This document shows, piece by piece, positions 18,581-32,332 of a stretch of 32,332 bases of DNA. A program made the translations under genes and the position numbers. Numbering within the stretch: position 1 is the stretch's first letter; the number at the start of each line of letters is the position of its first letter. The notes beneath the pieces were generated by a model. The model ran no database searches. It was not told the origin of the DNA and saw only the letters and a program-made list of their open reading frames with translations. Source of the DNA: Sedimenticola thiotaurini (GTDB lineage Bacteria; Pseudomonadota; Gammaproteobacteria; Chromatiales; Chromatiaceae); the NCBI GenBank assembly GCA_011051715.1, contig DRKP01000162.1, forward strand, positions 1 through 32,332. The letters run 5' to 3'.

Positions 18581-18641
18581 TCTAGGATCTTTCTCCTTGA
18601 TCCGCAAGATATTCCAGTTTGTTAAAGAGCCTGTGCGGTAT
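18581..18641 (-). promoter_or_regulatory. CRISPR leader
   Basis: Only 61 bases separate the cas2 stop codon from the first (newest) repeat. This AT-richer stretch must hold at least part of the leader recognised during spacer acquisition. The array promoter is either here, inside the 3' end of cas2, or shared with the cas operon; I found no convincing -10/-35 pair. A GATCAA motif near the repeat resembles half of an IHF site, but the rest of the IHF consensus is missing. Confidence 0.7.
18619..18630 (-). promoter_or_regulatory. boxA antitermination element in the CRISPR leader
   Basis: Read on the minus strand this is GCTCTTTAACAA, identical over 12 bases to the core boxA of Escherichia coli rRNA leaders (TGCTCTTTAACAA). 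It lies 38 bases before the first repeat and 11 bases after the cas2 stop, correctly oriented for array transcription. boxA recruits the Nus/SuhB complex and blocks Rho-dependent termination on untranslated RNA. boxA elements upstream of CRISPR arrays are an established feature of several bacteria. Confidence 0.8.
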
Positions 18642-18950
18642 TCAGTCGTCTGTATTTGACGGCTTCCGGCTGAGCACGATGCCATCGAGTTCGACCAGGT
18701 CGATCGGGGGCAGGCCGAGGGTCTTGACCGACTGACCTCCCGGCAGCTGGGGGTCCTGCCAGAGCATCACGACGGCGCCGTCGCTGGCCGGGTTGAACCA
18801 GCCGCGCAGCACGCCCCAGATTCGATCGCGCACGGCCGGGGAGAGGCGCGGGGCGCTGTAGACGCCGGGGGCCAGTTCCAGCATGGTCGAGGCGAGGAAG
18901 CCGCGAATCCGCGGCGCCACGTCACGCGTCACCACTACGGTCATCGACAT
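18642..18950 (-). CDS. cas2: CRISPR adaptation endonuclease-fold protein Cas2 (type I-E)
   Basis: A 102-residue Cas2e. The MSMTVVVTRDVAPRIRGFLA start and the GVYSAPRLSPAVRDRIW segment match the I-E branch closely. Cas2 dimers bridge two Cas1 dimers in the spacer integration complex. In type I-E this role is structural rather than nucleolytic. The start at 18950 corresponds to the conserved MSM of the E. coli protein and lies inside cas1, giving a 29-base overlap. The stop is directly followed by the leader and boxA. Confidence 0.96.
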   Translation of the reverse strand: MSMTVVVTRDVAPRIRGFLASTMLELAPGVYSAPRLSPAVRDRIWGVLRGWFNPASDGAVVMLWQDPQLPGGQSVKTLGLPPIDLVELDGIVLSRKPSNTDD

Positions 18951-19818
18951 GCAACAGCTCCTTGATCCGGTCGATCATGGCCGGGATCAGTTTCTGTTTG
19001 CGGAACCATTTGGCCGCCTCCAGCCGAAGCTCCCGTTCCAGCAGTCGCTGCGGGTCGTCGATCACCCGCCGGGCCACGGCGAAGGCCAGCGGCACGGTGG
19101 TCTCTGCGCGCCACAGGTCGGCGATGTCGAGCACGAAGGCGTTGCTCGATTCCTCGTGGATGAAGCCCAGCGGTGGCAGCGCGCCCACCGCCGCGACGGC
19201 GATGTCGGCGGCGGCCTCGACGAAGGTGGCGGCGTGGTTCAGCGCCTGGTTGGGGATGTCGGCGGCGTTGGGGTCTTGCCGGTCGTAGCGCCGTCCCTTC
19301 CAGGGAATCCCGTACTTGTCGGCGTTGAGGCGATACATCGCCTTGACCCGGCCGCCCTCGATGCCGCGCAGTACGGCGATGTCGCGATGCGGCAGCACCT
19401 CGCCAAAGCGAAAGGCGTACATGCGCCGGGCGACGTCGAGGCGGGCCGTTTCGTCGGCCCAGAGCCGGGCGTGGCCGCGGGCGGTGTCGGAACGTCCCTG
19501 GCCCATCGGCGGGGCGGTGTAGAACTTGACGCCGCCCTCGCCGACCGCGGCCAGCAGCGTACCGTGGCGCGCCAGCAGGCGCAGGGTGTCGTGGCTGACG
19601 GTGGAGCCGGGCCCGAGCAGGATCATCGACAGTCCCTGGTAGGGGATGGCGTAGTCGCCGGGGTCGAGCTGTTCGCTGCGGGCGGCGAGGAAGCGCAGGG
19701 TGCCGTTTTCCACCCGCAGCGCCCCGCGCGACAGCCACAGCAGCCCGTGGCGGTCGGCGTGGGGTACGCGGGACTCGGCCAGGCCCAACCGGCCGGGGAA
19801 TGGGCTGTTGTCGGGCAT
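18922..19818 (-). CDS. cas1: CRISPR integrase Cas1 (type I-E)
   Basis: A 298-residue Cas1e, the catalytic subunit of spacer integration. The metal ligands are Glu154 (RGIEGGRVKAMY), His221 (GFIHEESSNAFVLDIADLW), Asp231 and Asp234. Their spacing (67, 10 and 3 residues) is exactly that of Glu141, His208, Asp218 and Asp221 in the E. coli enzyme, so the site is complete. ATG 19818 follows the cas6e stop by three bases and has a GAGGGG ribosome site about eight bases upstream. Confidence 0.97.
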   Translation of the reverse strand: MPDNSPFPGRLGLAESRVPHADRHGLLWLSRGALRVENGTLRFLAARSEQLDPGDYAIPYQGLSMILLGPGSTVSHDTLRLLARHGTLLAAVGEGGVKFYTAPPMGQGRSDTARGHARLWADETARLDVARRMYAFRFGEVLPHRDIAVLRGIEGGRVKAMYRLNADKYGIPWKGRRYDRQDPNAADIPNQALNHAATFVEAAADIAVAAVGALPPLGFIHEESSNAFVLDIADLWRAETTVPLAFAVARRVIDDPQRLLERELRLEAAKWFRKQKLIPAMIDRIKELLHVDDRSGDA

Positions 19819-19821
19819 GGT

Positions 19822-20550
19822 TCAGCCCCTCGGCGGTCTGAGCAGCAGCATGCCGTAACCGAAGGCACGATGCCGCCCGATGCCCCGGGCGAGCAGCCGC
19901 TGAAAGCCCTCGGGGTCACGCACTTGCAGCCGGCCGTTGAACAGGGCCTCGGGGCGCGTCGGGCGTCTGGTCCGACGTTCCCCGGGTGCCCCCTGGTGCT
20001 TGCGGAGCTGGCGCACCTGCCGGTGGCCGGTCAGGGCCAGCCGCTCCACGGTGACGGCGTGGTCCGCCTGCAGGCGTTCGCGTGCCCAGTCGCAGTAGAC
20101 CTCTCCGCGGTCGAGCCGGGCCTCCGGCTCATGGTCGGCACGCAGCAGGAACAGGTCCTTTTCGATGCCGCTACGGGCCTTGCGTCCGACCGGGCAGCCG
20201 AGCAGCTCGAAGTCCAGTATGCGGCCCTCGCGGAACATGGGCAGGGGTTTGCTGGCGATGGATTCAGGCGGGCAGACGGCGACCACGGTGGGATCGGCGA
20301 AATCCTGCATCCGCCCGGTCAGCGCGTCGGCGCCGGCGGGGCCGTAAGCCAGCACCCGCGCCGGCCGCCTGCGATCGGCCAGCAGCCGCCAGGGGCGTGG
20401 CGCCTGGTCGCCGAAGGCGGCCTTGAGCCAGGCGTGGACGCCGTAGCCGAAGTCGGGGTCGCGGCGCGGGTCGTCCAGTCCCTGGGCGCGCAGAAAGCGC
20501 AGCAGGGCGGTCTGGTCGAGCTGGCATTCGATCATCTGCAAGTCGTTCAT
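19822..20550 (-). CDS. cas6e: CRISPR pre-crRNA endoribonuclease Cas6e (CasE)
   Basis: A 242-residue RAMP protein that cuts each repeat hairpin at the 3' base of the stem and stays bound to it in Cascade. The probable catalytic His39 lies in FGYGVHAWLKAAFGD, where Cas6e enzymes carry their essential histidine. The glycine-rich C-terminal loop GIGRHRAFGYGMLLL is the RAMP signature. The start overlaps the cas5e stop by four bases (ATGA). Confidence 0.95.
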   Translation of the reverse strand: MNDLQMIECQLDQTALLRFLRAQGLDDPRRDPDFGYGVHAWLKAAFGDQAPRPWRLLADRRRPARVLAYGPAGADALTGRMQDFADPTVVAVCPPESIASKPLPMFREGRILDFELLGCPVGRKARSGIEKDLFLLRADHEPEARLDRGEVYCDWARERLQADHAVTVERLALTGHRQVRQLRKHQGAPGERRTRRPTRPEALFNGRLQVRDPEGFQRLLARGIGRHRAFGYGMLLLRPPRG

Positions 20551-21302
20551 GCCGGCTCCTCCCCGGTCGCGAGCGGGCCCTCGATGCGCAGACTGGAGCC
20601 GGTCGGCAGGTTGGCCCGCCAGTCGCGCCGGTCGGCGACCCGCCGGCTCGCACCCCCGCCCTCGCCGGCCGGCCAGCAGGCCTCGCAGGCCGCTTGTCCG
20701 GTGAGTACCTCGCCGTCACGCCCCCAGCGCGGCACGCTGGACAGGATCGAGCGCAGCGTGGGGCCGGTGGCGACGGGGGTGACCGGGTCGAGCAGCGGCC
20801 GCGCCGGCAGGCAGGTCTTGCGGCCCAGGAACAGCGGTCGCGCCGGACGGCGCAGCGCCTCGTGGACCACGGTCAGCGACGGACCGGGGGCGTCGGTCAG
20901 GGCCAGGGCGAGGGTCATCAGGCCATCGCTCCAGTAGTGGCGGTAGCGGATGTGGGTGCCTTTGGTCGCATCACCACTTCCACGCCCCTCTGTCGTCCCT
21001 CGCGTTGTCCAAGCCGCAGGCTCTTTGCCGGGCGAATACCCTTTCATCTTCGGCTGCCCGAGATCGGCGGTGTGGTAATCGACGATGCGCTTCGGCCTCA
21101 CATCCCAGCGGGCGGCCAGGCGCAGCCGCGCTTGCAGGGCCACCAGGCGCTCACCGTCGCCGTGGCGCCAGCCCAGGGCGTTGCCGATCAGGCCGGTCAG
21201 CAGGGCGTGACCGGGGAAGCGGTCGATGACGCCGTGCTGATCGATCATCACACCGCCGAAGCTCATCAGCGGCGCGTCGAGGCGCAGGATCAGCGCCTCC
21301 AT
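20547..21302 (-). CDS. cas5e: Cascade subunit Cas5e (CasD)
   Basis: A 251-residue RAMP protein that caps the 5' handle of crRNA in Cascade. The N-terminus MEALILRLDAPLMSFGG and DRFPGHALLTGLIGNALGW are typical (compare RFPTRSGLLGLLGACLG in E. coli). KMKGYSPG and HYWSDGLMTLALAL also fit. I chose the ATG at 21302, which shares one base with the cas7e stop (TGATG). A GTG one codon upstream (21305), giving a four-base overlap, is equally possible. Confidence 0.94.
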   Translation of the reverse strand: MEALILRLDAPLMSFGGVMIDQHGVIDRFPGHALLTGLIGNALGWRHGDGERLVALQARLRLAARWDVRPKRIVDYHTADLGQPKMKGYSPGKEPAAWTTRGTTEGRGSGDATKGTHIRYRHYWSDGLMTLALALTDAPGPSLTVVHEALRRPARPLFLGRKTCLPARPLLDPVTPVATGPTLRSILSSVPRWGRDGEVLTGQAACEACWPAGEGGGASRRVADRRDWRANLPTGSSLRIEGPLATGEEPA

Positions 21303-22471
21303 CACGCACCCCCGAACAGCTCGTCGAGGACGGCGGCGATCGCCTCGTCCAGCGGCCGGGGCGTCTCGTCCTGGCGCGGCCAGGGATGCAGGCCGGCGAT
21401 CTCGCGGCGGCGCACGTCGTCGCCGTACATGCCGGTGAGGGCGTCGAGATGGCCGGCCATGGCCGTGACGGACTGCGCCATCGGGTGCGTGTCACGCTCG
21501 AACCGGACCGGCTGCAGGTAGGCGTTGGCGAGGCTGCGCGGCTGGCCGTCGCCCACCTCCAGCACCAGATGCTCGGCCCGCGCGTAGGGGGCGGTGGCGC
21601 CGAGCTTGGCGCCGGGGGTGACGGTGGCGATGGCGTGGATCAACTGGTCGAGCAGCTCGCGCGCGTCGCCGGTCGCCTGCTCGCGCCACTCCTTGCGGTC
21701 GCAGCCGGTCAGGTTGGAGACCAGCAGCGGTACGTCCACGGCGACGTAGCCGTAGAAGATGCCCGCTCCCAGCTCGGTGTCGTTGGCGTGGGCCGCGCCG
21801 GTCTCGTCGTCGCCGGCCAGGTCGTCGACCACGGTGAAGAAGTCCACCTCGGTATCGAGGGCGTGGGTGGTGAAGGCGTGGGCGACGTGCACCGGGGCGT
21901 CGACCCGGGCCAGCAGGTCGGAGGTGACGAAGCGGCCGAACAGGGCGCCTTCGAAGCCGGCGGCCGGGCTGTCGATACCGGCCTGGCGCAGCATCGCCTT
22001 GAAGTTCTTCCTGGCCGCCTTGATCTGTTCGGCCAGCCACTTCTTCGCCGCGTCTTCGTCTCCCTGGGTGGCGGCCTGCCGGACCAGGCCGACGAAATAG
22101 TCGGCCTCGGGCCTGCCGAACAGGACTGGCTGTTTCATCTGCAAGGTTTCTTTGTCGATAACGTCTTTGTTTTCCTTGGAGGTGAAAAGGTTCTTGGCCA
22201 GCTCCAGCAACAGGCCATGGACCAGGGCATCGTCCATGCCGTTTTCCACCAGGCGTGACTTCAACTCGCGGCTGAAAAAGTAGCGCGAGCGGATGCCGGA
22301 CGGCAGCCTGGCCCGTTCCATCATCCAGACCCGCCAGTGGCGCTTCTGGCACTGGCTGGAGACGCGCAACCGCTCGGCGCCGCCGAAGGGGATGCGCTTG
22401 GCCAGGCCCGCGTCGTCGCGGTTGAGCAGGCTGGCGTGATAGCTGGTGAGGCTGTGGATCTGCAGAAACAT
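21302..22471 (-). CDS. cas7e: Cascade backbone subunit Cas7e (CasC/Cse4)
   Basis: A 389-residue RAMP protein; six copies form the crRNA-binding filament of Cascade. The N-terminus MFLQIHSLTSYHASLLNRDDAGLAKRI and the following RVSSQCQKRHWR are diagnostic of Cas7e. So are LFGRFVTSD, HAFTTHALDTEVDFFT and FYGYVAVDVPLLVSNL. ATG 22471 has an AAGGAGGAAACC ribosome site and lies 11 bases after the cse2 stop. Confidence 0.97.
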   Translation of the reverse strand: MFLQIHSLTSYHASLLNRDDAGLAKRIPFGGAERLRVSSQCQKRHWRVWMMERARLPSGIRSRYFFSRELKSRLVENGMDDALVHGLLLELAKNLFTSKENKDVIDKETLQMKQPVLFGRPEADYFVGLVRQAATQGDEDAAKKWLAEQIKAARKNFKAMLRQAGIDSPAAGFEGALFGRFVTSDLLARVDAPVHVAHAFTTHALDTEVDFFTVVDDLAGDDETGAAHANDTELGAGIFYGYVAVDVPLLVSNLTGCDRKEWREQATGDARELLDQLIHAIATVTPGAKLGATAPYARAEHLVLEVGDGQPRSLANAYLQPVRFERDTHPMAQSVTAMAGHLDALTGMYGDDVRRREIAGLHPWPRQDETPRPLDEAIAAVLDELFGGA

Positions 22472-22482
22472 GGTTTCCTCCT

Positions 22483-22998
22483 TCAGGCGGCGGTGGATTC
22501 GGGTTTCAGATTCGAGAAGTAGTCGCGGGCGATACCGAGCCGCAGCCGGTCGGCCTTGGCCTCGTCGCGGGTTAGCAGCAGCCGGGCGCAGTCGGCCCAG
22601 TCGCAGGGCGTCTGCCTGGCGGCCAGATAGCGGGCGGCCCGCAGCAGCAGGGTTCGGCGGGTGTCGCCCTGTGCATCGAGCAGCCGCTCCAGGCGGGCCT
22701 CGGAGTAGCCGGCCTCGGCCAGCGCCCGCCCGAGGCCGTGACCGGGCCGGTGTGCACCCGGCGCCATGGTGGCGATGCCGGCCACGATCGTCACCCAGTC
22801 GTCGACTTGGCGCTCCCAGTCCTCGGGCAGGTGGGCGACGGCGAAGCGGGTGAAGGCCAGTGGCACCGGCTGGCCCGGGACCATGCGCCGCAGCCGGGCG
22901 CGGTCGCCGGTGGGGAAGCCGTCGCTGCAGATCACCCCGGCAATATGGCCGATGGTGCCCGGCAGCGAGGGTTGGTCAGTGGCTTGCGAGTTGGGCAT
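22483..22998 (-). CDS. cse2: Cascade small subunit Cse2 (CasB)
   Basis: A 171-residue helical protein; two copies line the belly of Cascade and hold the displaced DNA strand. Weak conservation is normal for this family. The regularly placed arginines, LRRMVPGQPVPLAFTRFAV, HRPGHGLGRALAEAGYSEARLERLL and the C-terminal RDYFSNL fit Cse2. The start at 22998 has a GGAGG seven bases upstream and lies inside the last 23 bases of cse1. The frame runs further upstream to 23112 over cse1 and is not used. Confidence 0.93.
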   Translation of the reverse strand: MPNSQATDQPSLPGTIGHIAGVICSDGFPTGDRARLRRMVPGQPVPLAFTRFAVAHLPEDWERQVDDWVTIVAGIATMAPGAHRPGHGLGRALAEAGYSEARLERLLDAQGDTRRTLLLRAARYLAARQTPCDWADCARLLLTRDEAKADRLRLGIARDYFSNLKPESTAA

Positions 22999-24607
22999 GG
23001 GATTCCTCCTTGAGGTGCGGGAAGTTATGCTTTGAATAAAACATTTGTTTGAAAACGCGCACTGCTTCGGTTCTGGCCAACCATTGGCGACCCGTGTGAA
23101 CGGGCAGTTCATCTAAACTTCTTTCCAGAATCCGAAGCGCCTCATCGCGCAAATATCGCGCCCAGTTTTCCAACGCCCGTCTTCGGTCTTCTTCGCTGGT
23201 CAATTCACCGCCCTCGATCGATTGCCAGAGCCAAGGGAAATAGGCTTCGGCCCAGAGCTGGCCAAAACTCGTCATTGGGCCGGCGTTCCTGTTTAACCAG
23301 GCCCCATGTTTTTTGTTGGCTTTTGCTCGCCATTCCTTGTCCGTCCAGTCGAGTCTCTTAGTTTTTTGATCCCTGAAGGCGTCCGAGACATGAAGATACG
23401 CGAGCAGTGCAGTAGCGAGTACGCGTTCCATCTTCCCAGCGACCTCTGCGATAGCCGCTTTCGACATATCTGCGATAGGGTCAACATCAGTCTTTGAACG
23501 CCGGAAAAGCGCCATCACGGGTTTTGGAATCAACAGCTCTCTTGATTGGTAGCCTTCGGTTCCCTTTGCGCTGCGCGCTACGGAGCTGCAACGAAGTAGA
23601 AGGCCTTCTTTAGCCAAGGACTCGGCTATCGGGAGGAGAGGCGTATTGATCGACTCCTTAAAAACGATCGAGCGCAAGCGCTCTGCACTCCAGCCGCGAT
23701 TTGATACGGAAATGACGGAACTATCATTCGCATCAACGGGGGCATAAGGGTCGCCCACGTTTCCACTCAGCGCCTTTGGGCTATAGATGAAGGGTTTGAC
23801 TGAAGGGGCACTGCGCCCCTCAATGGATTGATCGGTCGAGAACAGTCGATATTGGCGCGTGATTTCTATGAAGAACGGGTCCAGTTCATTGAGTTGCAGC
23901 TGTTGTCCATGATGGGGTTTGCTGGCCCAAGTCAGCACGACGCCATCCTTCGAGTACCCATACTCGCTATTCAATACCTTCGGCCGGTAATGCAACAGGC
24001 AAGTGATATCGAATTGCCATTGTTGGCCTATGCTTCCGGTAACAGTCGGCCGAACATAGACCCTACCGACGCGATTCTTCTTGGCTTTAATCGTCGCGAA
24101 GTAGAACCGCCCGCTCCCTCCGATTGAATAGCCTGCGGTCGCGTTGCTACTCACCAGTGCATACGCCCACAAGTCACATTCCGGCTGCATGCCGCGCGCC
24201 ATCTTGAGGTCGTGGTTTTTGGAGACCTCGGTCGTATCGAAGGCATCCGGGCTTATGCTCGACATGGAGAACTTGGTGCCTTCACAGGGCGGCTGCATGA
24301 ACGCCGGTTTCGACAGATCTTCGACCACCAGCGTCCAGGCATCGTCGCCGGCCTCGCCGGCCAGCCGGCGCAGGCCCTCGCGCCAGTAGTCTTCCGATTG
24401 CACCGGGTCGTCGCGGCCGTCGCGGGCGAGGATCACGCTGGCGAGCTGGCAGAGAAAGACGTGGAAGGCGTCTTCCTGGTGGCGCTGGATGCCGGGCAGC
24501 GATTCGACGCGGTCCTGGCCCAGGGCGGCGAGCAGGCCGGGCAGGCTCAGGCGCTCGATGCCGTCGGGCGTCTCCACGCGCAACAGTGGGTCGGTGAGCA
24601 GGTTCAT
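22976..24607 (-). CDS. cse1: Cascade large subunit Cse1 (CasA), PAM reader; compositionally mosaic
   Basis: A 543-residue protein starting MNLLTDPLLRVETPDG, the standard Cse1 opening. It recognises the PAM in target DNA and recruits Cas3. Landmarks include LPGIQRHQEDAFHVFLCQLA, the FMQPP loop, the central SIGGSGRFYF region and a helical C-terminus. The start overlaps cas3 by four bases (ATGA). The gene is two-toned: bases 24280-24607, encoding about the first 110 residues, are as GC-rich as the neighbours, whereas 23000-24250 is markedly poorer and uses A/T-ending codons. For example, 24301-24360 has 41 G+C of 60 and 23821-23880 has 28 of 60. The frame is intact. Confidence 0.95.
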   Translation of the reverse strand: MNLLTDPLLRVETPDGIERLSLPGLLAALGQDRVESLPGIQRHQEDAFHVFLCQLASVILARDGRDDPVQSEDYWREGLRRLAGEAGDDAWTLVVEDLSKPAFMQPPCEGTKFSMSSISPDAFDTTEVSKNHDLKMARGMQPECDLWAYALVSSNATAGYSIGGSGRFYFATIKAKKNRVGRVYVRPTVTGSIGQQWQFDITCLLHYRPKVLNSEYGYSKDGVVLTWASKPHHGQQLQLNELDPFFIEITRQYRLFSTDQSIEGRSAPSVKPFIYSPKALSGNVGDPYAPVDANDSSVISVSNRGWSAERLRSIVFKESINTPLLPIAESLAKEGLLLRCSSVARSAKGTEGYQSRELLIPKPVMALFRRSKTDVDPIADMSKAAIAEVAGKMERVLATALLAYLHVSDAFRDQKTKRLDWTDKEWRAKANKKHGAWLNRNAGPMTSFGQLWAEAYFPWLWQSIEGGELTSEEDRRRALENWARYLRDEALRILERSLDELPVHTGRQWLARTEAVRVFKQMFYSKHNFPHLKEESHAQLASH

Positions 24608-27201
24608 GCATCCTCCTTTTCCAGTCCGAAGCGGGTGTAGCGGTAGTGCGTGTCGCCCCAGCGCAGGATCAGGCCATCCCGGTCTGCCTGCTCGACGGTC
24701 AGTGTCTCCTCGTCGCCGCCGGCGGCCAGGTGGTCGGGGATGATCAGGTCATGCAGCTCCTGGCCGAAGGGGCTTTCGGCCGGTCGATCCAGCGGCAGTC
24801 GCCAGTTGTCGGCGCCGAGCCGGGTGGCGACCTTGCCGCCCATCTCGTTGAAATCGAACTGACCGAACGGCAGGCCGAAATCGACGGTGGCGGTGCCGGC
24901 CTGCAGGGCCTGCATCAGCTTCTCGCCGCTGACGGCCTGGCCGTGGCGCTGCCAGCGCGGGGCGTCGAGTCGGGCCAACCGCTCGGGGTGGGTGGCCTGT
25001 TCGACCAGCCAGCGGTTGTCCCGGGGCACCTGGATGGTTTCACGTTCGCGGATGGCATCGACCGTCAGCGCAAGGATGCGCAGGTCGGGATAGACGCTGC
25101 CGTAGCCGATGCGCTTGTAGCTGCCGTTGACGTTGCCGTTGTCGTCCAGCAGCTCGATCAGCGGCCTGTCCGGCACCAGCAGCAGGCAGCGTGCCTGCCC
25201 GAACCCGGCCGGGCGTTCGCGTTCGTGGCGGTGCAGGCGTCCGACCCGTTGCAGCAGCACGTCGGCCGGGGCGAGGTCGCTGACCAGCAGATCGGCGTCG
25301 ATGTCCAGGCTCTGTTCCAGTGTCTGGGTGCCGATCAGCAGCAGCGGCCCGGCCGGGCTGCCCTTGCCGAGTCGGTCGCTGACGGCCTTGTCCAGCACGG
25401 CGCGGTCGTCCGGGGCGAAGCGGCCGTGGTGGGGGCAGCGCGCGCCGTTTACGGCGAACAGCCAGCCGGGATCGAAGTGGTCCCGGCCCTCCAGCGCACG
25501 CAGCAGGTCGTTGGCCCGGGCGACGGTGTTCATCACCACCAGCACCCGGGCGCCCTGTCGGAGCGCGTCGACGAGTCGCTCGGCGAGCCGTTCCGGCCGT
25601 TCGGCCAGCGCCAGGGGCTCGAAGCGGACCGTCTTGCCGGGGCCTTCGGTCCGTGCGCAGGGAACGAGTCGTCCGCTGGCATCGCTCAGTGCCGGGTAGG
25701 GCGTGGCGATGGCCTCGTCGAGCGGCGGTGGCGTGACGGCCGCGCCGGCCGCGTCGAGATAGCGGCAGCGCGCCGCGCTGCCGAGGGTGGCCGACAGCAG
25801 CAGGGCGTGGCCGCCGGTCCCGAGGTGATGGCGCAGCAGGTGTTCGAGCAGGCGCGACATGTAGGTGTCGGAGGCGTGCACTTCGTCCACCACCAGCAGG
25901 GCGCGGTCGAGGCAGACCGAGCGCAGGTGGGCGTGGGCGGTCTGCACCACGGACAGCAGGGCCTGGTCGATGGTGCCGACCGCGACACTGGCGGCGAGGA
26001 ATCGCTTGGGGTGCTCGGCCGCCCAGTGGCGTTCGCGCCGGCGTTGCTCGGCCTCATCGAGCCACCGGTTGCCCTGCTCCTCGTCGGGCAGGACCTGCTC
26101 GGCGGGCAGGCCGTCGACCTCGGCGTAGCCGGGCACGGCCAGCACGGTGACCGGGCGGGACCGTTCGTCCGGGAACCAGCGCCCGATGGTCTTGACCACC
26201 CGCCGGTAGAGCTCGCGCGCGGCGACCCGTGTCGGCAATGCGAAGTAGAGACCATCGACCCGGCCCGCGGCCAGCAGCCTGCCGAACCAGTGCAGCGCGG
26301 CCTCGGTCTTGCCCGAACCGGTCTCGGATTCGGCGATCAGCAGGCGATTGGCTGCCTCGTCGGGGTCGAGTCCGTCGATCAGGGCCTGCAGCGGTCGGGG
26401 AGGAAACGCGAAACGCGCGTCGAAGGGTGCGTCGGCCAGCGGGAACAGACGCGGATCGAGTCCCACCGCGCGCAGCAGTCGCGGCACCGTCTCGCGGTCG
26501 GTGGCCAGGCGCTGCCCGATATCGGTCTGTTCGACCGGAAACCAGTGCGGGTGCGATCCCAGCCAGTCGGCCAGCATCACCAGTCCGGCGAAGCGGTGCT
26601 GGAATGCGGGGGAATCGGGCAGCGGCTTGTCGCAGGCGCCGAATGCGTCGGGAAAGGCGCGTCGCGCGGTGGCGATCAGCTCGGCGATCGCGCTCATCGG
26701 GTCGCGCCGGCCGTCCGCTTGCCACCACCGTCTGGCCGCGCTGGCGATGCCGGTGCGCTCAGCGTCGAACCGCAGCGGGCGGCCGTGATGGGAAAAAGTG
26801 GCCAGGAAGAAGCCGAGGGCAGCGGATTCGCCCGCGAACCATTGGCCGATGGTCTGCCATTGCAGCACTGCCATCAGGGGCTCGGCGAGGTCCGGCTCCT
26901 GAAACAGAGGCACCAGTTCGCGCACATGCCCGGCGCGCGGCGCCTGCGTATCGAAGGGTTTGCGTTGAAAGCCGAGATTGGCCTTGCCGAGGTCGTGCAA
27001 CAGGGCCAGCACCGCCAGCCGGTCGAGATCGGTGCTGTCGAGCCGGCGACCGGCGGTCCGTTCCAGCGCCCGGCGGATGCCTGGCAACTCGCCCAGGATG
27101 CGGAAACAGAGAGCGACGTCCAGGCAGTGGGATGAAAGAGGCAGTATGTGTTGCCCACTGAGCTTTCCCCAGAAGAGATCGGGCTGCCGGGCTTGCGTCA
27201 C
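24604..27201 (-). CDS. cas3: CRISPR nuclease-helicase Cas3 (type I-E)
   Basis: An 865-residue HD-helicase fusion that nicks, unwinds and degrades DNA marked by Cascade. The HD nuclease part has His25 (SSHCLDVA), His69-Asp70 (LLHDLGKANLGFQ), His138-His139 (FSHHGRP) and Asp212. The SF2 helicase has Walker A ETGSGKT at 293-299, DEVH at 439-442 and the SAT motif (LLLSATL). It also has the C-terminal QRVGRLHRH motif. I chose GTG 27201, just before the conserved DLFWGKLSGQ. The frame stays open 50 codons upstream to 27351 with no Cas3 similarity and no ribosome site; the site before GTG is also weak, so the start is moderately certain. Confidence 0.95.
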   Translation of the reverse strand: MTQARQPDLFWGKLSGQHILPLSSHCLDVALCFRILGELPGIRRALERTAGRRLDSTDLDRLAVLALLHDLGKANLGFQRKPFDTQAPRAGHVRELVPLFQEPDLAEPLMAVLQWQTIGQWFAGESAALGFFLATFSHHGRPLRFDAERTGIASAARRWWQADGRRDPMSAIAELIATARRAFPDAFGACDKPLPDSPAFQHRFAGLVMLADWLGSHPHWFPVEQTDIGQRLATDRETVPRLLRAVGLDPRLFPLADAPFDARFAFPPRPLQALIDGLDPDEAANRLLIAESETGSGKTEAALHWFGRLLAAGRVDGLYFALPTRVAARELYRRVVKTIGRWFPDERSRPVTVLAVPGYAEVDGLPAEQVLPDEEQGNRWLDEAEQRRRERHWAAEHPKRFLAASVAVGTIDQALLSVVQTAHAHLRSVCLDRALLVVDEVHASDTYMSRLLEHLLRHHLGTGGHALLLSATLGSAARCRYLDAAGAAVTPPPLDEAIATPYPALSDASGRLVPCARTEGPGKTVRFEPLALAERPERLAERLVDALRQGARVLVVMNTVARANDLLRALEGRDHFDPGWLFAVNGARCPHHGRFAPDDRAVLDKAVSDRLGKGSPAGPLLLIGTQTLEQSLDIDADLLVSDLAPADVLLQRVGRLHRHERERPAGFGQARCLLLVPDRPLIELLDDNGNVNGSYKRIGYGSVYPDLRILALTVDAIRERETIQVPRDNRWLVEQATHPERLARLDAPRWQRHGQAVSGEKLMQALQAGTATVDFGLPFGQFDFNEMGGKVATRLGADNWRLPLDRPAESPFGQELHDLIIPDHLAAGGDEETLTVEQADRDGLILRWGDTHYRYTRFGLEKEDA

Positions 27202-27595
27202 CGGGTTTCCATTTGCGCCCGATGCGGCAGGCGCGCGCCGTGTTTTTCCGGTCTTGATGAGTGCCTTCCTTGGCCGCAAAGCGGTCAATTGTCGGGATAG
27301 ATGCAGCGTGAAACGGTATCGTAAAGTAAGTGGTCCGCAAACCCCGGTCATCCATGCCGGGACGGATCATCGGGAATGCCATGGTCGAGGTTGAAAGGCG
27401 GCAGTGTGGTTGCAAAAGAAATCAGGGAGCCGTCGAGGATATCGGTTTCGGCCGGCGGACCCCCATCGAGACCCAGGCCCCGAAGATCCCGAAGCTCCCG
27501 GGATCGATGGAAAGGATCCTCCGGTTCACACCGACAGCCGGCAGGTCGGCCGCCCCGGGCCGGCGTGTGGAACGGCACCCTGACCCGGGGTTGGT
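27202..27595. other. Intergenic region upstream of cas3
   Basis: About 390 bases between ubiC and cas3, both on the minus strand. It should hold the cas operon promoter and the ubiC terminator. I see AT-richer patches around 27290-27330 but no promoter pair I can defend, no clear operator and no gene; open frames here are chance products of high GC. Confidence 0.45.
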
Positions 27596-28180
27596 TCATC
27601 CCGGCCCCCCCGGAATCGTCGGCAGGAACAGCTCGTTCACCAGCAACGGGCGTCCCGCCATGAAAAACAGCGTGCGGCGTCCCCACACCGCATTGGGCAG
27701 CGGGAGCAGCCCCTGCGTGGCGCTGTCGAACAGTTGCTCACCGGGACGCAGTTCCGCCATCTCGGTCACGCCACGCCGCACCCGCCGGTCGGCGAACAGC
27801 ACCGCGCCGAGCGGACGCTCGCCGAGCCGGGCCAGGCGCTGCCCCGGGCCTCGCAGCGTGGTGGCCGGGATCAGTGTCCGCGCGAACACCCAGGGCTGGC
27901 CGTCACACAGCAACTGCACCTCGCGTACCAAGGCCAGTCCGCCACGCCGCAGTCGCAGCCGCCGCGCCTCGCTGGGCAGGGCGCGCGCCCATCCCTGGCG
28001 CAACAGCCGTACCGCGAACGGTCTGTCGCCGCAGGCGCACTTCAGGCGCAGTGTCAGCGAGCCGTCGTCACGCAGCCAGGAGACGAACCTCGCCGGTACC
28101 CGGGAGCGGCCCAGCCGTTGCCACTCGCACCACCCGGGTTCACGCCGGGATCGGATCGATACGGGATGTTGCAAGGTCAC
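27596..28180 (-). CDS. ubiC: Chorismate--pyruvate lyase UbiC
   Basis: A 194-residue cytoplasmic enzyme that splits chorismate into pyruvate and 4-hydroxybenzoate, the ring precursor of ubiquinone. Conserved features are Arg86 in LVREVQLLCDGQPWVFARTL, the RLARLGERPLGAVLF segment and Glu183 in RPLLVNELFLP. The last corresponds to the product-binding glutamate near the C-terminus of the E. coli enzyme. It is about 30 residues longer than the E. coli protein, mostly at the N-terminus. The start is a GTG; no other ubiquinone gene is adjacent (ubiA may be elsewhere). Confidence 0.93.
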   Translation of the reverse strand: MTLQHPVSIRSRREPGWCEWQRLGRSRVPARFVSWLRDDGSLTLRLKCACGDRPFAVRLLRQGWARALPSEARRLRLRRGGLALVREVQLLCDGQPWVFARTLIPATTLRGPGQRLARLGERPLGAVLFADRRVRRGVTEMAELRPGEQLFDSATQGLLPLPNAVWGRRTLFFMAGRPLLVNELFLPTIPGGPG

Positions 28181-28323: not shown

Positions 28324-29079
28324 CTACGGGGCCGGGTAGCCGAGGCGCCGGGCGATCTCGTCGCGGGCGGCCTGGATCCGGGGGATCCATTCGTCGCGGC
28401 GCCGCTCGATGGGCGCGGAGATGGAGAGGCCGGCCACCACCCCGCCACGGCCGTCGCGGATCAGCACGCCAATGCAGCCGACGCCGGTCTCCGCCTCCTC
28501 GTTGTCATAGGCGAATCCCTGCTCCAGCGCCTCCCTGGCGGCCTGTTGCAGGGCCGGGAGCGTGGTGATGGTGTTGGGCGTGAACCGGGGCAGGCCGGTC
28601 CTGCCGGCGTAGCCGGCGATCTCGTCGTCGCCGCCGGTGGCCAGCATCATCTTTCCCACCGCGGTGACGTGCAGCGGGGCGCGGCTGCCGATCACCTGTT
28701 CCACCCGCATCATCCGGTTGGCGATGGCACGCTCGATATAGACCACCTGGTCCCCCTCCCGCACCGTGAGATTGACCGATTCACCGATCTCGTCACGCAG
28801 TCGCTCCATCACCCCGTGGGCCTCGCGGCGGATGTCGATGCCGGCGTTCACCCGGCAGCCGAGGTCGCGCAGCTTGCGTCCCAGCCGGTAGGCCCCCGAT
28901 GCGGTCCGTTCGGTGAAGCCGTGCTCGGTCATGGAGGCGAGGATGCGGTAGGCGGTGGAGGGGTGCAGACCGGTGTCGGCGGAGAGGAATTTGAGGCTGA
29001 CCGCGTCATCGTAGGCGGCGATGGCGTCGAGCAGGCGCGACATGCGTTCGATGACCTGGATGGAGGAGACCTTTGGCAT
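28324..29079 (-). CDS. IclR-family transcriptional regulator
   Basis: A 251-residue regulator. The N-terminal winged helix-turn-helix (about 5-65) contains LKFLSADTGLHPSTAYRILASM. The C-terminal IclR effector domain (about 75-248) shows LHVTAVGKMMLA, EEAETGVGCIGVLIRDG and GLSISAP. IclR proteins bind small carboxylic acids or sugar acids and usually repress or activate an adjacent catabolic operon. It is transcribed divergently from the phosphoketolase-like gene across 111 bases, so it most likely controls that operon and itself. The effector is unknown. Confidence 0.93.
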   Translation of the reverse strand: MPKVSSIQVIERMSRLLDAIAAYDDAVSLKFLSADTGLHPSTAYRILASMTEHGFTERTASGAYRLGRKLRDLGCRVNAGIDIRREAHGVMERLRDEIGESVNLTVREGDQVVYIERAIANRMMRVEQVIGSRAPLHVTAVGKMMLATGGDDEIAGYAGRTGLPRFTPNTITTLPALQQAAREALEQGFAYDNEEAETGVGCIGVLIRDGRGGVVAGLSISAPIERRRDEWIPRIQAARDEIARRLGYPAP

Positions 29080-29190
29080 CGTGATTCACCATGTGAAAAC
29101 GATTTTGATTTACGAAATATACTTCCCGAAATAGACTTATACCGCAATACGATAATTATTTCACTATAAGAAATACCGGAGAGCGATACG
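29080..29190. promoter_or_regulatory. Divergent promoter/operator region with repeated GAAATA sites
   Basis: This AT-rich intergenic stretch contrasts with the GC-rich coding flanks. A direct repeat CGAAATAKACTT occurs at 29113-29124 and 29127-29138 (14-base period). TATTTC at 29157-29162 and GAAATA at 29170-29175 form an inverted repeat with a 7-base spacer close to the gene at 29191. The GAAAT/ATTTC half-site is of the kind IclR-family proteins bind. TATACT at 29118-29123 resembles a -10 box, but I cannot assign a matching -35. GGAGAG before 29191 is the ribosome site. Confidence 0.6.
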
Positions 29191-31410
29191 ATGACCATGG
29201 AATCCGCCCTGTCCAGTAGTGCACCGGTTCCCGGTTTCTGCCAGGGCATCCAGTACTTCGCCGACGACTGGCCCGAGTTCGCCCGCCATGCCGGCGAGGC
29301 GGTCATCGGCGAGGGCCAGTCCGCGGTCGCCGACCCCGGGAGCGACGACGCGGTCTACCAGACCCTGCTCGGCGCCGATGCCCTGCGCTACCTGACGCTG
29401 CAGGTGACCGGCTCCAAGGGATCCGGTCACCCCGGCGGTTTCGCCAGCAGCGCCGACGCCTATGCCGCCCTGGTGATGCTCGGGCATACCAACATCGTCA
29501 CCGAGGTGGGGCACCACGCCCCCGGTTTCTACAGCGCCATGTTCCTCGACTCGTCACTGGAGGAGATGGGCATCCACACGGTGGAGCAGATGCAGCAGCG
29601 CTTCCGGGAACGGGATGGCCTGCTGGGGCACCTGTCGGGCGCCATCCCGGGGCTGCTGGCCCCGGCCGGCCCCCTGGGCCAGGGTCAGCACTTCGCCATG
29701 GCCGGCGCCCTGCTGCACCCGGAGCGGCTGTTCCCGGTCACCATCGGTGACGGCGGGATGGGGGAGCCCTACGTGCTGAACGCCATGATGCACTTCCACA
29801 CTGCCTACCCGGAGGTGACCAATTTCCTGCCGGTGCTGGTGTGGAACGGCTACAGCCAGGAGCACCACTCCATGGTCTCGCGTCTGGACAACGGGCAGAT
29901 GACCGCCTACTGGAAGGGGCACGGCTTCGAGAAGGTGGTGCTGATCGACGCCAAGGTGTTCGACGACAGCGGCCAGGAGGGGGACTACGTCGACAGCACC
30001 CGCTTCTCCTTTGACAACCGGCTGGCCTTCACCCGGGCGGTGCTGGAGGGGATGGACCAGGCGGCGCGCGCCGCCATGGGCGGCACCCTGACCGCCTTCA
30101 TCGTCAAGCAGCTGAAGGGGGCGGGGGTGCACACGGTGGGGGCGAAGTCCCACAATCTCTACCCCGCCGACACCCTGGACCAGCCCCATATCATCGAGGG
30201 TCTGCGGCGGCGCGCCCTGCCACCCCGGGCATGGCAGATCGTGCGCGACAACTTCCGGCGTGCCGGCGGCGGCCCCGCGGTGGAGACGGTGGTGACCGAA
30301 TCGGTGCTCGATCTGGCGCCCCTGGGCGAACTGCCGAAGCAGGCCTTCGCCGTCGGGGAGAAGGCGGTGCCGGCCACCGCCATGGGTGCCCTGGTGGCGG
30401 CGGTGGGCCGGGCCGACCCCCGCTTCGTGGTGACCAACGCCGACGGCAACGAGGCGTCGGCGATGAAGAACATCAACGATGCCCTGAAGATCCGCCATCC
30501 GACTCCGGATCCGCTCTACAACCAGGAGCCCGGCGGCCAGGTCTACGAGCCGCTGAACGAGGATGCCTGTGCCGGCCTGGCCGCCGGCCTCGCCCTGTTC
30601 GGCTCCCGCGCCCTGTGGCTCTCCTACGAGAGCTTCGCCATCAACGGCTGGCCCATCGTCCAGACCGTGACCCAGGCGATGGCGGAGCTGCGCCGGCGCA
30701 CCCCCTCCATCGTCTGCATGTTCACCGCCGGCGCCCTGGAACAGGGGCGTAACGGCTGGACCCACCAGCGGCCGGAGATCGAGAACCACTTCGCCGCCAT
30801 GATGCGCAACGGCAACCTCTTTCCCCTGTTCCCGTGCGACGCCAACGGCATCCAGGCGGCCTACGAGTACGCCACCGACAGCTTCAACAAGGGGATGGTG
30901 ATCATCGCCTCCAAGAGCCCGCTGCCGGTCTACCTCGATCTGCAGGCATCGCGCCAGGCGGTGGAGCGGGGCGCGGCGGTGTTGTACGAGAGCGACAGCG
31001 GCGACCGTGGCACGGTGGTGCTGGCGGCCACCGGGGACATGGTGTTCCTGCCCGTGTTCGAGGCACGCGACCGGCTGGAGGCGGCCGGCTACCGGGTGCG
31101 GGTGGTGGCGGTGGTCAATCCACGCCAGTTGTACCGCCCTGGCGACATCGCCTGGGATACGGTCGCGGAGCCGGACAACGGCTTCATGGACGACGATCAC
31201 TTCAACGCCCTGTTCGACGGCGACGTCCTGATCGGGGTAAGCGGCGGGCCCAGCGCCTGCCTGGAGCCGGTGCTGCTGCGCACGCGGGCACCGCGACGGG
31301 ACCTGTTCGCCTGGAAGCGGGGCGAGACCACCGCCTCGCCAGCGGAGATCATGGCCTTCAACGGCATCACCGCCGGGGCCATCGCCGCACGGGCGCAGGA
31401 ACTGGCCTGA
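29191..31410 (+). CDS. Phosphoketolase/transketolase-like TPP-dependent enzyme
   Basis: A 739-residue thiamine-diphosphate enzyme. The N-terminal half shows GSGHPGG (77-83), PLGQGQHFAMAGAL and the cofactor motif starting IGDGG (GDG at 186-188) and ending at Asn219 in WNGYS. The middle has NQEPGGQVYEPLNEDACAG, with a glutamate (457) where TPP enzymes keep the one that activates the cofactor, and SYESFAING. The C-terminal part has NGWTHQ at 521-526 and the PCDANG and IIASKSPLP segments. These parallel NGFTHQDP, PPDAN and VAGKQPLP of phosphoketolases. It is shorter than classical phosphoketolases (about 790-800) and differs around GDG, where they have GDGEAETGP. It may cleave a ketose phosphate or a related acid sugar; relatives sometimes carry weakly founded names. 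It is divergent from the IclR gene and coupled to the kinase three bases downstream. Confidence 0.85.
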   Translation: MTMESALSSSAPVPGFCQGIQYFADDWPEFARHAGEAVIGEGQSAVADPGSDDAVYQTLLGADALRYLTLQVTGSKGSGHPGGFASSADAYAALVMLGHTNIVTEVGHHAPGFYSAMFLDSSLEEMGIHTVEQMQQRFRERDGLLGHLSGAIPGLLAPAGPLGQGQHFAMAGALLHPERLFPVTIGDGGMGEPYVLNAMMHFHTAYPEVTNFLPVLVWNGYSQEHHSMVSRLDNGQMTAYWKGHGFEKVVLIDAKVFDDSGQEGDYVDSTRFSFDNRLAFTRAVLEGMDQAARAAMGGTLTAFIVKQLKGAGVHTVGAKSHNLYPADTLDQPHIIEGLRRRALPPRAWQIVRDNFRRAGGGPAVETVVTESVLDLAPLGELPKQAFAVGEKAVPATAMGALVAAVGRADPRFVVTNADGNEASAMKNINDALKIRHPTPDPLYNQEPGGQVYEPLNEDACAGLAAGLALFGSRALWLSYESFAINGWPIVQTVTQAMAELRRRTPSIVCMFTAGALEQGRNGWTHQRPEIENHFAAMMRNGNLFPLFPCDANGIQAAYEYATDSFNKGMVIIASKSPLPVYLDLQASRQAVERGAAVLYESDSGDRGTVVLAATGDMVFLPVFEARDRLEAAGYRVRVVAVVNPRQLYRPGDIAWDTVAEPDNGFMDDDHFNALFDGDVLIGVSGGPSACLEPVLLRTRAPRRDLFAWKRGETTASPAEIMAFNGITAGAIAARAQELA

Positions 31411-31413
31411 GTC

Positions 31414-32332
31414 ATGGCGGAGACCAGGATCGTCGTGCTGGACGACGACCCGACCGGGTCGCAGACGGTCCACTCCTGCCTGCTGCTGACCCGCTGGGAG
31501 GTCGCCGACCTGCGCCAGGCGCTGCGGGACGACTCGCCCCTGTTCTTCGTCCTCACCAATACCCGCGGCATGGGGGCGGAACAGGCGGCGGCGGTCACCC
31601 GCGAGGTGTGCCGCAACCTGAAGCGGGCGCTGGAGCAGGAGCAGCAGGCGGGCCACCCGATCCATCCCATCCTGGTCAGTCGTTCCGACTCCACCCTGCG
31701 CGGCCACTACCCGGTGGAGACCGATGTCATCGCCGCGGAACTGGGGCCGTTCGACGCCCATTTCCTGGTGCCGGCCTTCTTCGAGGGCGGGCGCATCACC
31801 CGCGACAGCACCCACTACCTGCTGCAGGAGGGGAGGCCGGTGCCGGTGCACGAGACCGAATTCGCCCGCGACTCGGTGTTCGGGTTCTCCACCGCCTACC
31901 TGCCGGACTACGTGGAGGAGAAGACCGGCGGGCGCATCCGCGCCGGCCAGGTGGAGCGCTTCCTGCTGGCGGACGTGCGCGGCGACGTGATGGAGCGGCT
32001 GATGGGGCTGCGGGACAACGTCTGCTGCGTGGTCGATGCCGAGACCCGGGGCGACCTGGACCGCTTCGCCACCCGGCTGCGGCAGGCGGCCGCCCGCGGC
32101 AAGCGCTTCCTGTTCCGCAGTGGTGCCAGCCTGCTCACCGCCCTGGCCGGGCTGCCGCCGCAACCGGTGCCGCCGGAGCAGATGGGCCGGTACGTGGCCG
32201 GAGGCCGGCCCGGTGCGGTGATCGTCGGTTCCCATGTGCGGAAGACCACCGCCCAGCTGGAGCGGCTGCTGCAACTGCCCACGGTGGAGGCGGTGGAGGT
32301 CGACGTGGAGCGCATCGACCGGGATCATGCCG
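31414..32332 (+). CDS. Four-carbon acid sugar kinase family protein (DUF1537/OtnK-like), 3' end missing
   Basis: 306 residues are visible of a protein usually well over 400 long. The N-terminal substrate domain has VVLDDDPTGSQTVH (residues 7-20), FFVLTNTRGM and ILVSRSDSTLRGHYP, all characteristic of this kinase family. HFLVPAFFEGGRIT and VIVGSHVRKTTAQL also fit; the C-terminal ATP-binding domain runs off the window. Known members phosphorylate D-threonate, D-erythronate, L-threonate-derived or 2-/3-oxo-tetronate acids. ATG 31414 lies three bases after the upstream stop, so it is operonic with the phosphoketolase-like gene. Its substrate here is unknown. Confidence 0.9.
   Translation, partial: MAETRIVVLDDDPTGSQTVHSCLLLTRWEVADLRQALRDDSPLFFVLTNTRGMGAEQAAAVTREVCRNLKRALEQEQQAGHPIHPILVSRSDSTLRGHYPVETDVIAAELGPFDAHFLVPAFFEGGRITRDSTHYLLQEGRPVPVHETEFARDSVFGFSTAYLPDYVEEKTGGRIRAGQVERFLLADVRGDVMERLMGLRDNVCCVVDAETRGDLDRFATRLRQAAARGKRFLFRSGASLLTALAGLPPQPVPPEQMGRYVAGGRPGAVIVGSHVRKTTAQLERLLQLPTVEAVEVDVERIDRDHA

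Follow-up and report, generated by a model that had tools for sequence, protein, structure and literature searches.

Our analysis of one whole contig of Sedimenticola thiotaurini (DRKP01000162.1; here C162 or the window, 32,332 bases) showed that a 739-residue enzyme dependent on thiamine pyrophosphate (TPP) and a DUF1537 four-carbon acid sugar kinase make up a ketolase-kinase pair that is real and strongly conserved, and no such module was found in the open-licence literature that we searched. In a bacterium that fixes CO2, the pair may provide an undescribed rescue of the carbon lost when RuBisCO reacts with oxygen. The sequence and the gene order place the module very probably in glycolate/glyoxylate metabolism, where the TPP enzyme probably forms a carbon-carbon bond on glyoxylate. 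More tentatively, we propose that enzyme and kinase constitute a module for glycolate/glyoxylate (phosphoglycolate) salvage that works by the steps set out below and occurs mainly in autotrophs with a Calvin cycle. The contig belongs to a genome (G000) of 3.39 Mb in 194 contigs that is 99.99% complete, and its relevant features are as follows.

28324..29079, minus strand: IclR-family regulator gene (Pfam IclR_C 138.4 bits, HTH_IclR 46.8 bits)
29085..29097, no strand: operator-like palindrome TTCACCATGTGAA, between the divergent IclR and TPP genes
29191..31410, plus strand: TPP-dependent ketolase-like enzyme, 739 aa, ATG start (open reading frame (ORF), Pfam, NCBIfam, alignment, tree)
31414..32332, plus strand: DUF1537 four-carbon acid sugar kinase, first 306 of 440 aa (ORF, Pfam; the rest lies on contig C86)

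The IclR gene and the divergent TPP gene are separated by a gap of 111 bp, and the kinase ORF, whose start (31414) lies 3 nt past the TPP stop codon, leaves the contig at the end of the window. Another contig of the same genome, C86, opens with an exact copy of the last 145 bases of the window, and joining the two yields a reading frame for a kinase of 440 residues that ends at C86:549. Downstream of it on C86 lie dctP, dctQ and dctM, encoding a TRAP transporter, and then glcD, glcE and glcF, encoding glycolate oxidase, which gives the joined operon the order IclR< >TPP >kinase >dctPQM >glcDEF. The join is an assembly overlap, which alone does not prove linkage; the identical order is found within a single contig in one relative (L043). 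The GlcF and GlcE proteins of the operon exceed their family cut-offs (660 vs 333 and 417 vs 284 bits, respectively) and GlcD falls just under its own (806 vs 897). An earlier note on this DNA, which asked for the genes to the right of 32332, described the pair correctly but could not see this glycolate context; C86 has dctPQM and glcDEF there.

A scan of one genome per species across 84,980 species returned 152 relatives of the TPP enzyme. We fetched the best 80 of these, which are 72-83% identical and align over 676 or more of the 739 residues, so that our counts concern close relatives. Together with two genomes of a phylum sample (G108 and G219) they give 82 loci, which are not 82 genomes, since L002 and L045 come from one genome and L049 and L076 from one metagenome-assembled genome (MAG); G108 is the same genome as L045, and several MAGs are near-identical pairs. 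Neighbours were counted by tblastn (at least 33% identity, E<=1e-12). The kinase gene follows the TPP gene on the same strand, within 700 nt, in 79 of the 79 loci with at least 300 nt of downstream sequence. Of the 79 loci with at least 500 nt upstream, 77 have a divergent IclR gene no more than 600 nt away from it (the misses are L076 and L103). Because kinase and regulator are almost universally conserved in the fetched relatives, the idea of a functional ketolase-kinase unit, put forward in the earlier note, holds. That a four-carbon acid sugar kinase directly follows the TPP gene is corroborated by the Pfam match, the 3-nt spacing and all 79 loci with enough downstream sequence, and the IclR neighbour named there is real and divergent, although its gene lies just outside the interval to which it had been assigned; the order suggested for the two enzymes, kinase first and TPP-dependent cleavage second, is unsupported as written. 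Among the named hosts are Sedimenticola, Thiogranum, Mariprofundus ferrooxydans, Gallionella, Sideroxydans, Sulfuriferula, Thiobacillaceae, Thiococcus and Thiosymbion, groups that we take to be lithoautotrophs or phototrophs.

The TPP enzyme belongs to a separate, tightly conserved family, neither a standard phosphoketolase nor a standard transketolase. The 739-residue ORF (29191-31410) and the five motifs previously read in it (GSGHPGG, PLGQG, SYESF, NGWTHQ and PCDAN) are all present in the sequence, and GDGEAETGP is indeed lacking; in the alignment its position reads GDGGMGEP, and that of EGGELGY reads PAGPLGQ. Of the five phosphoketolase-like rows shown in the alignment, four have EGGELGY and GDGE-ETGP, the signature motifs of phosphoketolases. 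The mixed character of the motifs was likewise borne out by the alignment, the N-terminal half being transketolase-like (GSGHPGG, GPLGQG) and the C-terminal half phosphoketolase-like (SYESF, Q-x-x-NGWTHQ and the lysine of IASKSP). The Pfam domains found are of the XFP and Transket_pyr types only, with none of the acetolactate-synthase type: XFP_N, XFP and XFP_C match at 37.2, 47.2 and 24.3 bits, all over their gathering thresholds (23.7, 22 and 23.4), and Transket_pyr matches weakly. The enzyme does not reach the NCBIfam cut-offs for phosphoketolases (111.2 vs 777 bits at best, five other models scoring lower) or for transketolases (51.8 vs 488 and 47.6 vs 682.25 bits). Foldseek and VIA-align ranked phosphoketolases first for its AlphaFold2 model (pLDDT 80.7), with 3ahc at Z 35.6, a root-mean-square deviation of 4.3 A over 651 residues and 19% identity, and transketolases second (Z 29.3, 18% identity). 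In a tree built from 12 proteins of the family, 9 phosphoketolase-like ones and 4 transketolases, from which the chance ORFs L004_501 and L006_502 were left out, the family is a single clade (100/98) nearer to the phosphoketolases on a branch of 3.78 changes per column, a length that carries a long-branch warning, so that the sister relation to phosphoketolases is not firm. The 785-residue phosphoketolase-like protein of L006 (genome G003), which reads NGKNEQSHQ where others read QDHNGFSHQ and sits on a branch of 4.66, possibly represents another separate TPP family.

These data bear on the idea that the enzyme is an ordinary, if divergent, phosphoketolase that makes acetyl phosphate from xylulose-5-phosphate or fructose-6-phosphate and whose neighbours are incidental. 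Phosphoketolases do provide the nearest fold and the Pfam domains, and several of their active-site residues seem to be kept, namely what we take to be the equivalents of Gln546, Asn549, His553, Tyr501 and Lys605 (Bifidobacterium numbering). However, the enzyme stays far under every NCBIfam phosphoketolase cut-off, its EGGELGY and GDGE-ETGP positions are changed, and it did not group tightly with characterised phosphoketolases but formed its own clade, at 16-20% identity to the solved ones and with 111 of the 777 bits required; moreover, a kinase present at 79 of 79 loci has no place in the phosphoketolase pathway. On the cut-offs, the motifs and the tree we hold this explanation to be hardly credible. 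Replacement of transketolase, a possibility raised by the autotrophic hosts, was rejected because G000 has a full transketolase on contig C137 (N-terminal domain 555.6 bits). Six residues of the family (H80, H108, H147, H321, E457 and H525) are invariant in 44 sequences, and we equate them with the donor-site and TPP residues His30, His69, His103, His263, Glu418 and His481 of yeast transketolase, the His103 equivalence depending on an alignment gap; such an invariant set would be as expected of a ketol-donor site.

The assignment of the kinase comes from Pfam SBD_N (PF07005, 192.8 bits) and NBD_C (PF17042, 28.3 bits, exactly at the cut-off), both scored on the 306 of 440 residues encoded in the window; the same partial copy does not reach the D-threonate kinase model NF047819 (55 vs 450 bits). 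A structural model of the L032 orthologue (pLDDT 85.7) matched only eight chains at E<=0.001, from six entries (4xgj, 5dmh, 3dqq, 4xfr, 1yzy and 4xg0). Four entries are titled DUF1537 from EFI targets and one Pfam DUF1537 from Haemophilus, together six of the eight chains, and the two chains of 3dqq, titled "putative tRNA synthase", are presumably DUF1537 as well. In sequence the kinase is distant from these PDB entries (39.7 bits at best). Relatives with 34-40% identity were found in seven plasmid records: the Deinococcus operon has an oxidoreductase, a racemase-family protein and an FBA-type aldolase, that of Rhodococcus a racemase, the kinase and an FBA-type aldolase, and that of Arthrobacter (by ORF reading) a beta-hydroxyacid dehydrogenase, a permease and an FBA-type aldolase, while in Ligilactobacillus, Priestia and Niallia (the last by ORF reading) the kinase directly follows garR and is accompanied by a gluconate-type symporter. 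According to PMC12540250, 2-oxo-L-threonate is converted to dihydroxyacetone phosphate (DHAP) by 2-OtnK together with 2-OtnC, a protein that has an F_bP_aldolase domain, and 3-oxotetronate is a substrate of another DUF1537 kinase, 3-OtnK. A kinase beside an FBA-type aldolase is the layout reported there for 2-OtnK and 2-OtnC; one plasmid relative (Arthrobacter) has both the FBA-type aldolase and a beta-hydroxyacid dehydrogenase, and two have the aldolase. Judged from its family and these operons, the module kinase most likely acts on a four-carbon keto acid; the garR neighbours of related kinases would leave glycerate open as its substrate.

The neighbours of the pair in relatives, and the content of their genomes, point to where the keto acid might come from. 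At least one of glcD, glcE and glcF lies in the flanks of 20 of the 33 loci for which 8 kb or more was fetched on each side, and all three in 18 (tblastn); ORF clustering gave 24 of 33, but one of its clusters (c3) seems to contain LutA-like proteins besides GlcF, and we use the lower number. Of the 55 loci with at least 3.5 kb downstream, 21 have glcD behind the kinase and no more than 2.2 kb past the TPP gene. The module stands beside glycolate oxidase genes in Mariprofundus and Sulfuriferula, for example, and has different neighbours in Gallionella, Thiogranum and others; ABC, TRAP or MFS transporters occur in other module clusters. Malate synthase G was counted in 5 of 82 loci, tartronate-semialdehyde reductase (TSAR) in 12 of 82 and, by ORF clustering, an aminotransferase in 5 of 83 clusters (nearest model BhcA, below cut-off). 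The fullest cluster, on the G219 chromosome, comprises IclR, TPP and kinase genes, glcDEF, MMSDH, TRAP genes, a 2-hydroxyacid dehydrogenase, an amidase, TSAR, a second 2-hydroxyacid dehydrogenase, TerC, a universal-stress-type protein, GlxK and malate synthase (GlcF, TSAR and GlxK named by family search, the rest read from the sequences). In eleven Gallionella-type or related loci (L044, L046, L053, L055, L057, L058, L068, L075, L077, L081 and L091) a branched-chain-amino-acid-type ABC transporter behind the kinase replaces glcDEF; an aldehyde dehydrogenase resembling MMSDH (of the methylmalonate-semialdehyde type) is present in most of these clusters, and GlcG-like and LutB-like proteins are frequent.

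We searched 53 module genomes (those of 50 of the 80 loci, mostly on longer contigs, plus G000, G108 and G219). RuBisCO was present in 47 of them, compared to 98 of the 299 genomes of the phylum sample, which is crowded by one family, and GlcF was over its cut-off in all 53. Together with the operon that runs into glycolate oxidase, these counts suggest that glyoxylate is the metabolite that enters and that the TPP enzyme makes a carbon-carbon bond, and they point away from the kinase-first use of an acid sugar proposed in the earlier note, which survives as a rival. In that scheme an imported four-carbon acid sugar would be degraded, with GlcDEF (Lut-type proteins in some clusters) oxidising a 2-hydroxy acid, the kinase phosphorylating the 2-oxo acid, and the TPP enzyme cleaving or decarboxylating the product. 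The decarboxylation of 2-oxo acids is classical TPP chemistry. The TRAP transporter of the window's operon, and the ABC, TRAP or MFS transporters of others, would suit such a pathway, and the kinase is of a kind known from tetronate-type operons (PMC12540250, in excerpt). It is harder to reconcile with an operon GlcF at twice its equivalog cut-off and with the genome counts of GlcF and RuBisCO. The malate synthase, TSAR, aminotransferase and glycerate kinase genes of some clusters point instead to glyoxylate, and no dehydratase, isomerase or tetronate dehydrogenase is conserved with the pair among the ORF clusters inspected. We consider acid-sugar degradation distinctly improbable.

The enzymes that normally process glyoxylate are unevenly represented in the module genomes. 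Glyoxylate carboligase (TIGR01504) is over its cut-off in none of the 53 (best match 369.9 vs 711.2 bits), and in G000 the TPP gene is not among the matches to this model, the single one being on C137. By comparison, 11 of 43 RuBisCO genomes without the module have the carboligase (Fisher p=6.5e-5), or 11 of 27 if only controls outside groups f33 and f53 are taken (p=1.2e-6); these p values ignore the relatedness of the genomes, and the controls were hand-picked from the 98 RuBisCO-positive genomes (27 outside f33 and f53, 16 inside, all 16 without carboligase). TSAR is over its cut-off (340.75 bits) in 22 of the 53, with near-misses in G335 (337.3), G318 (304.2) and G348 (266.8, a partial match), and a glycerate kinase of the GckA type is found in 32 and of the GlxK type in 8. 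In G000 no member of the glycerate pathway (Gcl, TSAR, glycerate kinase) is over its cut-off: TSAR reaches 50.6 bits at best, and the glycerate-kinase families PF13660 and PF02595 have no match; other enzymes may do the same work there. Both TSAR over cut-off and the two glycerate kinases are absent from ten of the 53 genomes (G000, G108, G300, G301, G313, G316, G333, G335, G339 and G345, with G335 counted TSAR-free by 3 bits only). In these ten the standard glycerate route has, on the evidence of the family searches, no recognised enzyme after glyoxylate, and a route bypassing glycerate thus seems needed there.

The main rival explanation takes the missing carboligase as its starting point. 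The TPP enzyme would replace it, converting two glyoxylates to tartronate semialdehyde and CO2, a reductase would make glycerate, and the DUF1537 protein would be a glycerate kinase or, after isomerisation, a hydroxypyruvate kinase; the glycerate pathway would then run as known, except that unrelated proteins would stand in for two of its enzymes. It fits the lack of Gcl over cut-off in all 53 module genomes, it better explains the clusters that contain TSAR (12 of 82 loci, next to 22 of 53 genomes), above all that of G219 with its TSAR, GlxK-type glycerate kinase and, by reading, two 2-hydroxyacid dehydrogenases, and it agrees with the related kinases directly after garR in Priestia, Niallia and Ligilactobacillus and with some glycerate kinase in 40 of 53 genomes. 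Yet it leaves the genomes without TSAR and glycerate kinase unexplained, among them the 99.99% complete G000. In addition, 19 of the 22 TSAR genomes already have a dedicated glycerate kinase, so that DUF1537 is not needed for that step, and the invariant ketol-donor histidines would be superfluous for a reaction between two glyoxylates. The presence of TSAR and that of glycerate kinase show no significant link (19/22 vs 21/31, p=0.2). We regard carboligase replacement as unlikely, and return to glyoxylate as the acceptor of a ketol unit.

Salvage would begin with 2-phosphoglycolate, formed by RuBisCO oxygenation and dephosphorylated to glycolate, or with glycolate taken up, possibly via the TRAP transporter of the operon, and GlcDEF would oxidise glycolate to glyoxylate in the second step. 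In the third, the TPP enzyme would move a two-carbon ketol unit from a Calvin-cycle ketose, most likely xylulose-5-phosphate or fructose-6-phosphate, to glyoxylate, giving 3-oxotetronate (2,4-dihydroxy-3-oxobutanoate) and an aldose phosphate. The 2-OtnK-like DUF1537 kinase would then phosphorylate C4 of 3-oxotetronate or of its 2-oxo tautomer, and the phosphorylated keto acid would lose CO2 to become DHAP, helped by a class II FBA-type aldolase or, where no aldolase adjoins the module, possibly by the Calvin-cycle aldolase or by no enzyme. A glyoxylate-sensing IclR repressor would control the operon. Sequence and gene order support the gene families of the second and fourth steps and the divergent IclR gene; which substrates the first and the third to fifth steps use, in what order they run, and what the regulator senses, we infer. 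That glyoxylate as acceptor would give 3-oxotetronate, a DUF1537 substrate, and that carboligase and TSAR are missing, form the core of the reading we favour, and an acceptor switch from the phosphate of phosphoketolase to glyoxylate would be a small change. The specific sequence from 3-oxotetronate to DHAP is nonetheless a tentative suggestion. Equally provisional is the wider proposal of a natural phosphoglycolate-salvage ("photorespiration") route of chemolithoautotrophs in which a glyoxylate ketoltransferase ("3-oxotetronate synthase"), a kinase and a decarboxylation lead to DHAP without nitrogen transfer, carboligase or NAD(P)H.

The regulator is matched by both Pfam IclR domains, and its best NCBIfam IclR model is that of BhcR (NF045644), whose cut-off it does not reach (157.5 vs 350 bits); BhcR responds to glyoxylate. 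The palindrome TTCACCATGTGAA occurs once in the window (29085-29097), in the gap between the IclR and TPP genes, and the pattern TTCACNNNGTGAA has this single occurrence compared to 0.01 expected. In 66 IclR-TPP gaps of relatives, each extended a little into the two genes, TTTC[AG]CNNNG[CT]GAAA is present in 21 and in none of 200 base-shuffled sets, and TTGTGAAA in 48, compared to a shuffled mean of 0.67 and maximum of 3; the shuffles keep base content only.

Several observations weigh against this salvage route. As regards the enzyme itself, alanine is aligned at two transketolase phosphate-ligand positions, the first beside an alignment gap, which we take to be those of the phosphate-binding Arg359 and His469; a phosphorylated donor is therefore not assured, the Lys605 equivalent being the only phosphate-related residue kept as against two replaced by alanine, and the active-site loops of the model have pLDDT below 50. 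As regards the chemistry, 2-OtnK is reported to act on a 2-oxo acid and ketol transfer gives a 3-oxo acid, so that a tautomerisation is needed, and for each glyoxylate one CO2 is given off, double what the glycerate pathway loses. An FBA-type aldolase adjoins the module in five loci only (4 of 82 by tblastn and 4 by ORF clustering, one of them different), and 13 of the 33 long-flank loci have no glcDEF nearby, several of these carrying LutB-like, GlcG-like, ABC-transporter and MMSDH genes. The GlcF count comes from module genomes only, without a matched control among module-free RuBisCO genomes. Six of the 53 module genomes (G302, G305, G308, G314, G317 and G335) have no RuBisCO match; in one of them, G302, the L038 locus lies on a single 2.45-Mb chromosome record with module and GlcF, so that at least one carrier may lack a Calvin cycle. 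TSAR, which the proposed route does not need, is present in 22 of 53 genomes and in some lies inside the cluster, and 21 of the 40 genomes with some glycerate kinase are without TSAR, so that glycerate may arise another way there. Finally, malate synthase, present in about 60% of non-cyanobacterial RuBisCO genomes, could remove glyoxylate via the malate cycle (PMC7486775). Such a cycle may run beside either salvage or a carboligase-type reaction.

The disposal of 2-phosphoglycolate by iron and sulfur oxidisers that use RuBisCO has been little studied. For iron oxidisers reducing power is expensive, since they make NADH by driving electrons uphill. If ketol transfer takes place, it would be a new enzyme reaction, and salvage would spend ATP and no reducing power; per glyoxylate, C5 + C2 would yield two C3 and CO2 at the cost of one ATP. 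Phosphoglycolate salvage had remained uncharacterised in chemolithoautotrophs until the glycerate pathway and malate cycle were shown in one species, and the malate cycle has been suggested for many of them (PMC7486775, in excerpt). A further study (PMC7895386) detected no photorespiration route specifically adapted to the Calvin cycle outside cyanobacteria and gives glycolate oxidase (EC 1.1.3.15) as rare. In the open-licence full-text literature nothing joined DUF1537 to phosphoglycolate salvage, or a four-carbon acid sugar kinase to glycolate oxidase, and among the matches listed no title linked the TPP family or the kinase to glycolate salvage.

The remainder of the window has features of its own. 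A chorismate lyase gene (27596-28180) lies between cas3 and the IclR gene; chorismate lyase acts in ubiquinone synthesis. The CRISPR-Cas locus (16784-27351), which we take to resemble type I-E, has an array of about 30 repeats with 61-nt spacing (16784-18580), followed by cas1-like, Cas6-type, cas5 and cas7 (CT1975-like) genes, a 543-residue ORF that holds the place of casA and has no Pfam match, and cas3 (24604-27351, minus strand). A sensor protein of 1919 residues (10190-15949), with four SBP_bac_3 stretches, HisKA, HATPase_c, two receiver domains and Hpt, adjoins an HD-type response regulator (9127-10188) and a PAS-GGDEF-EAL protein (7450-9108).

Among known systems, phosphoketolase (XFP; Bifidobacterium 3AHC and 3AI7) resembles the TPP enzyme in whole-chain fold, C-terminal active-site residues and Pfam XFP domains, and its acceptor, phosphate, is a small anion like the proposed glyoxylate; the TPP enzyme is shorter (739 residues, compared to 796-845 in the solved ones), has the transketolase-like GSGHPGG and GPLGQG without EGGELGY or GDGEAETGP, and stands in a glycolate gene context. 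With transketolase it shares the histidines and glutamate of the TPP and donor sites, GPLGQG and the fold, and it differs in its phosphoketolase-like C-terminal half (SYESF, NGWTHQ) and in the two changed phosphate-binding residues. A precedent for the acceptor is 2-hydroxy-3-oxoadipate synthase, in which glyoxylate accepts a TPP-bound acyl group to give a 2-hydroxy-3-oxo acid; its donor is 2-oxoglutarate and it belongs to another enzyme family. The glycerate pathway of Cupriavidus necator (Gcl, TSAR and glycerate kinase; PMC7486775, in excerpt) is similar in its presumed glycolate/glyoxylate input, its glycolate oxidase, its combination of a TPP enzyme with a kinase and its autotrophic hosts, whereas the module genomes have no carboligase over cut-off (53 of 53), TSAR was not found in G000, and the TPP enzyme and kinase of the module come from families unrelated to those of the glycerate pathway. 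The three-step L-threonate pathway (LtnD, 2-OtnK and 2-OtnC; Guo et al., 2024, as given in excerpts of PMC12540250) shares with the module a DUF1537 kinase of the kind that neighbours FBA aldolases and the expected product DHAP; in the module, a TPP enzyme and glycolate oxidase take the place of the dehydrogenase that supplies the keto acid.

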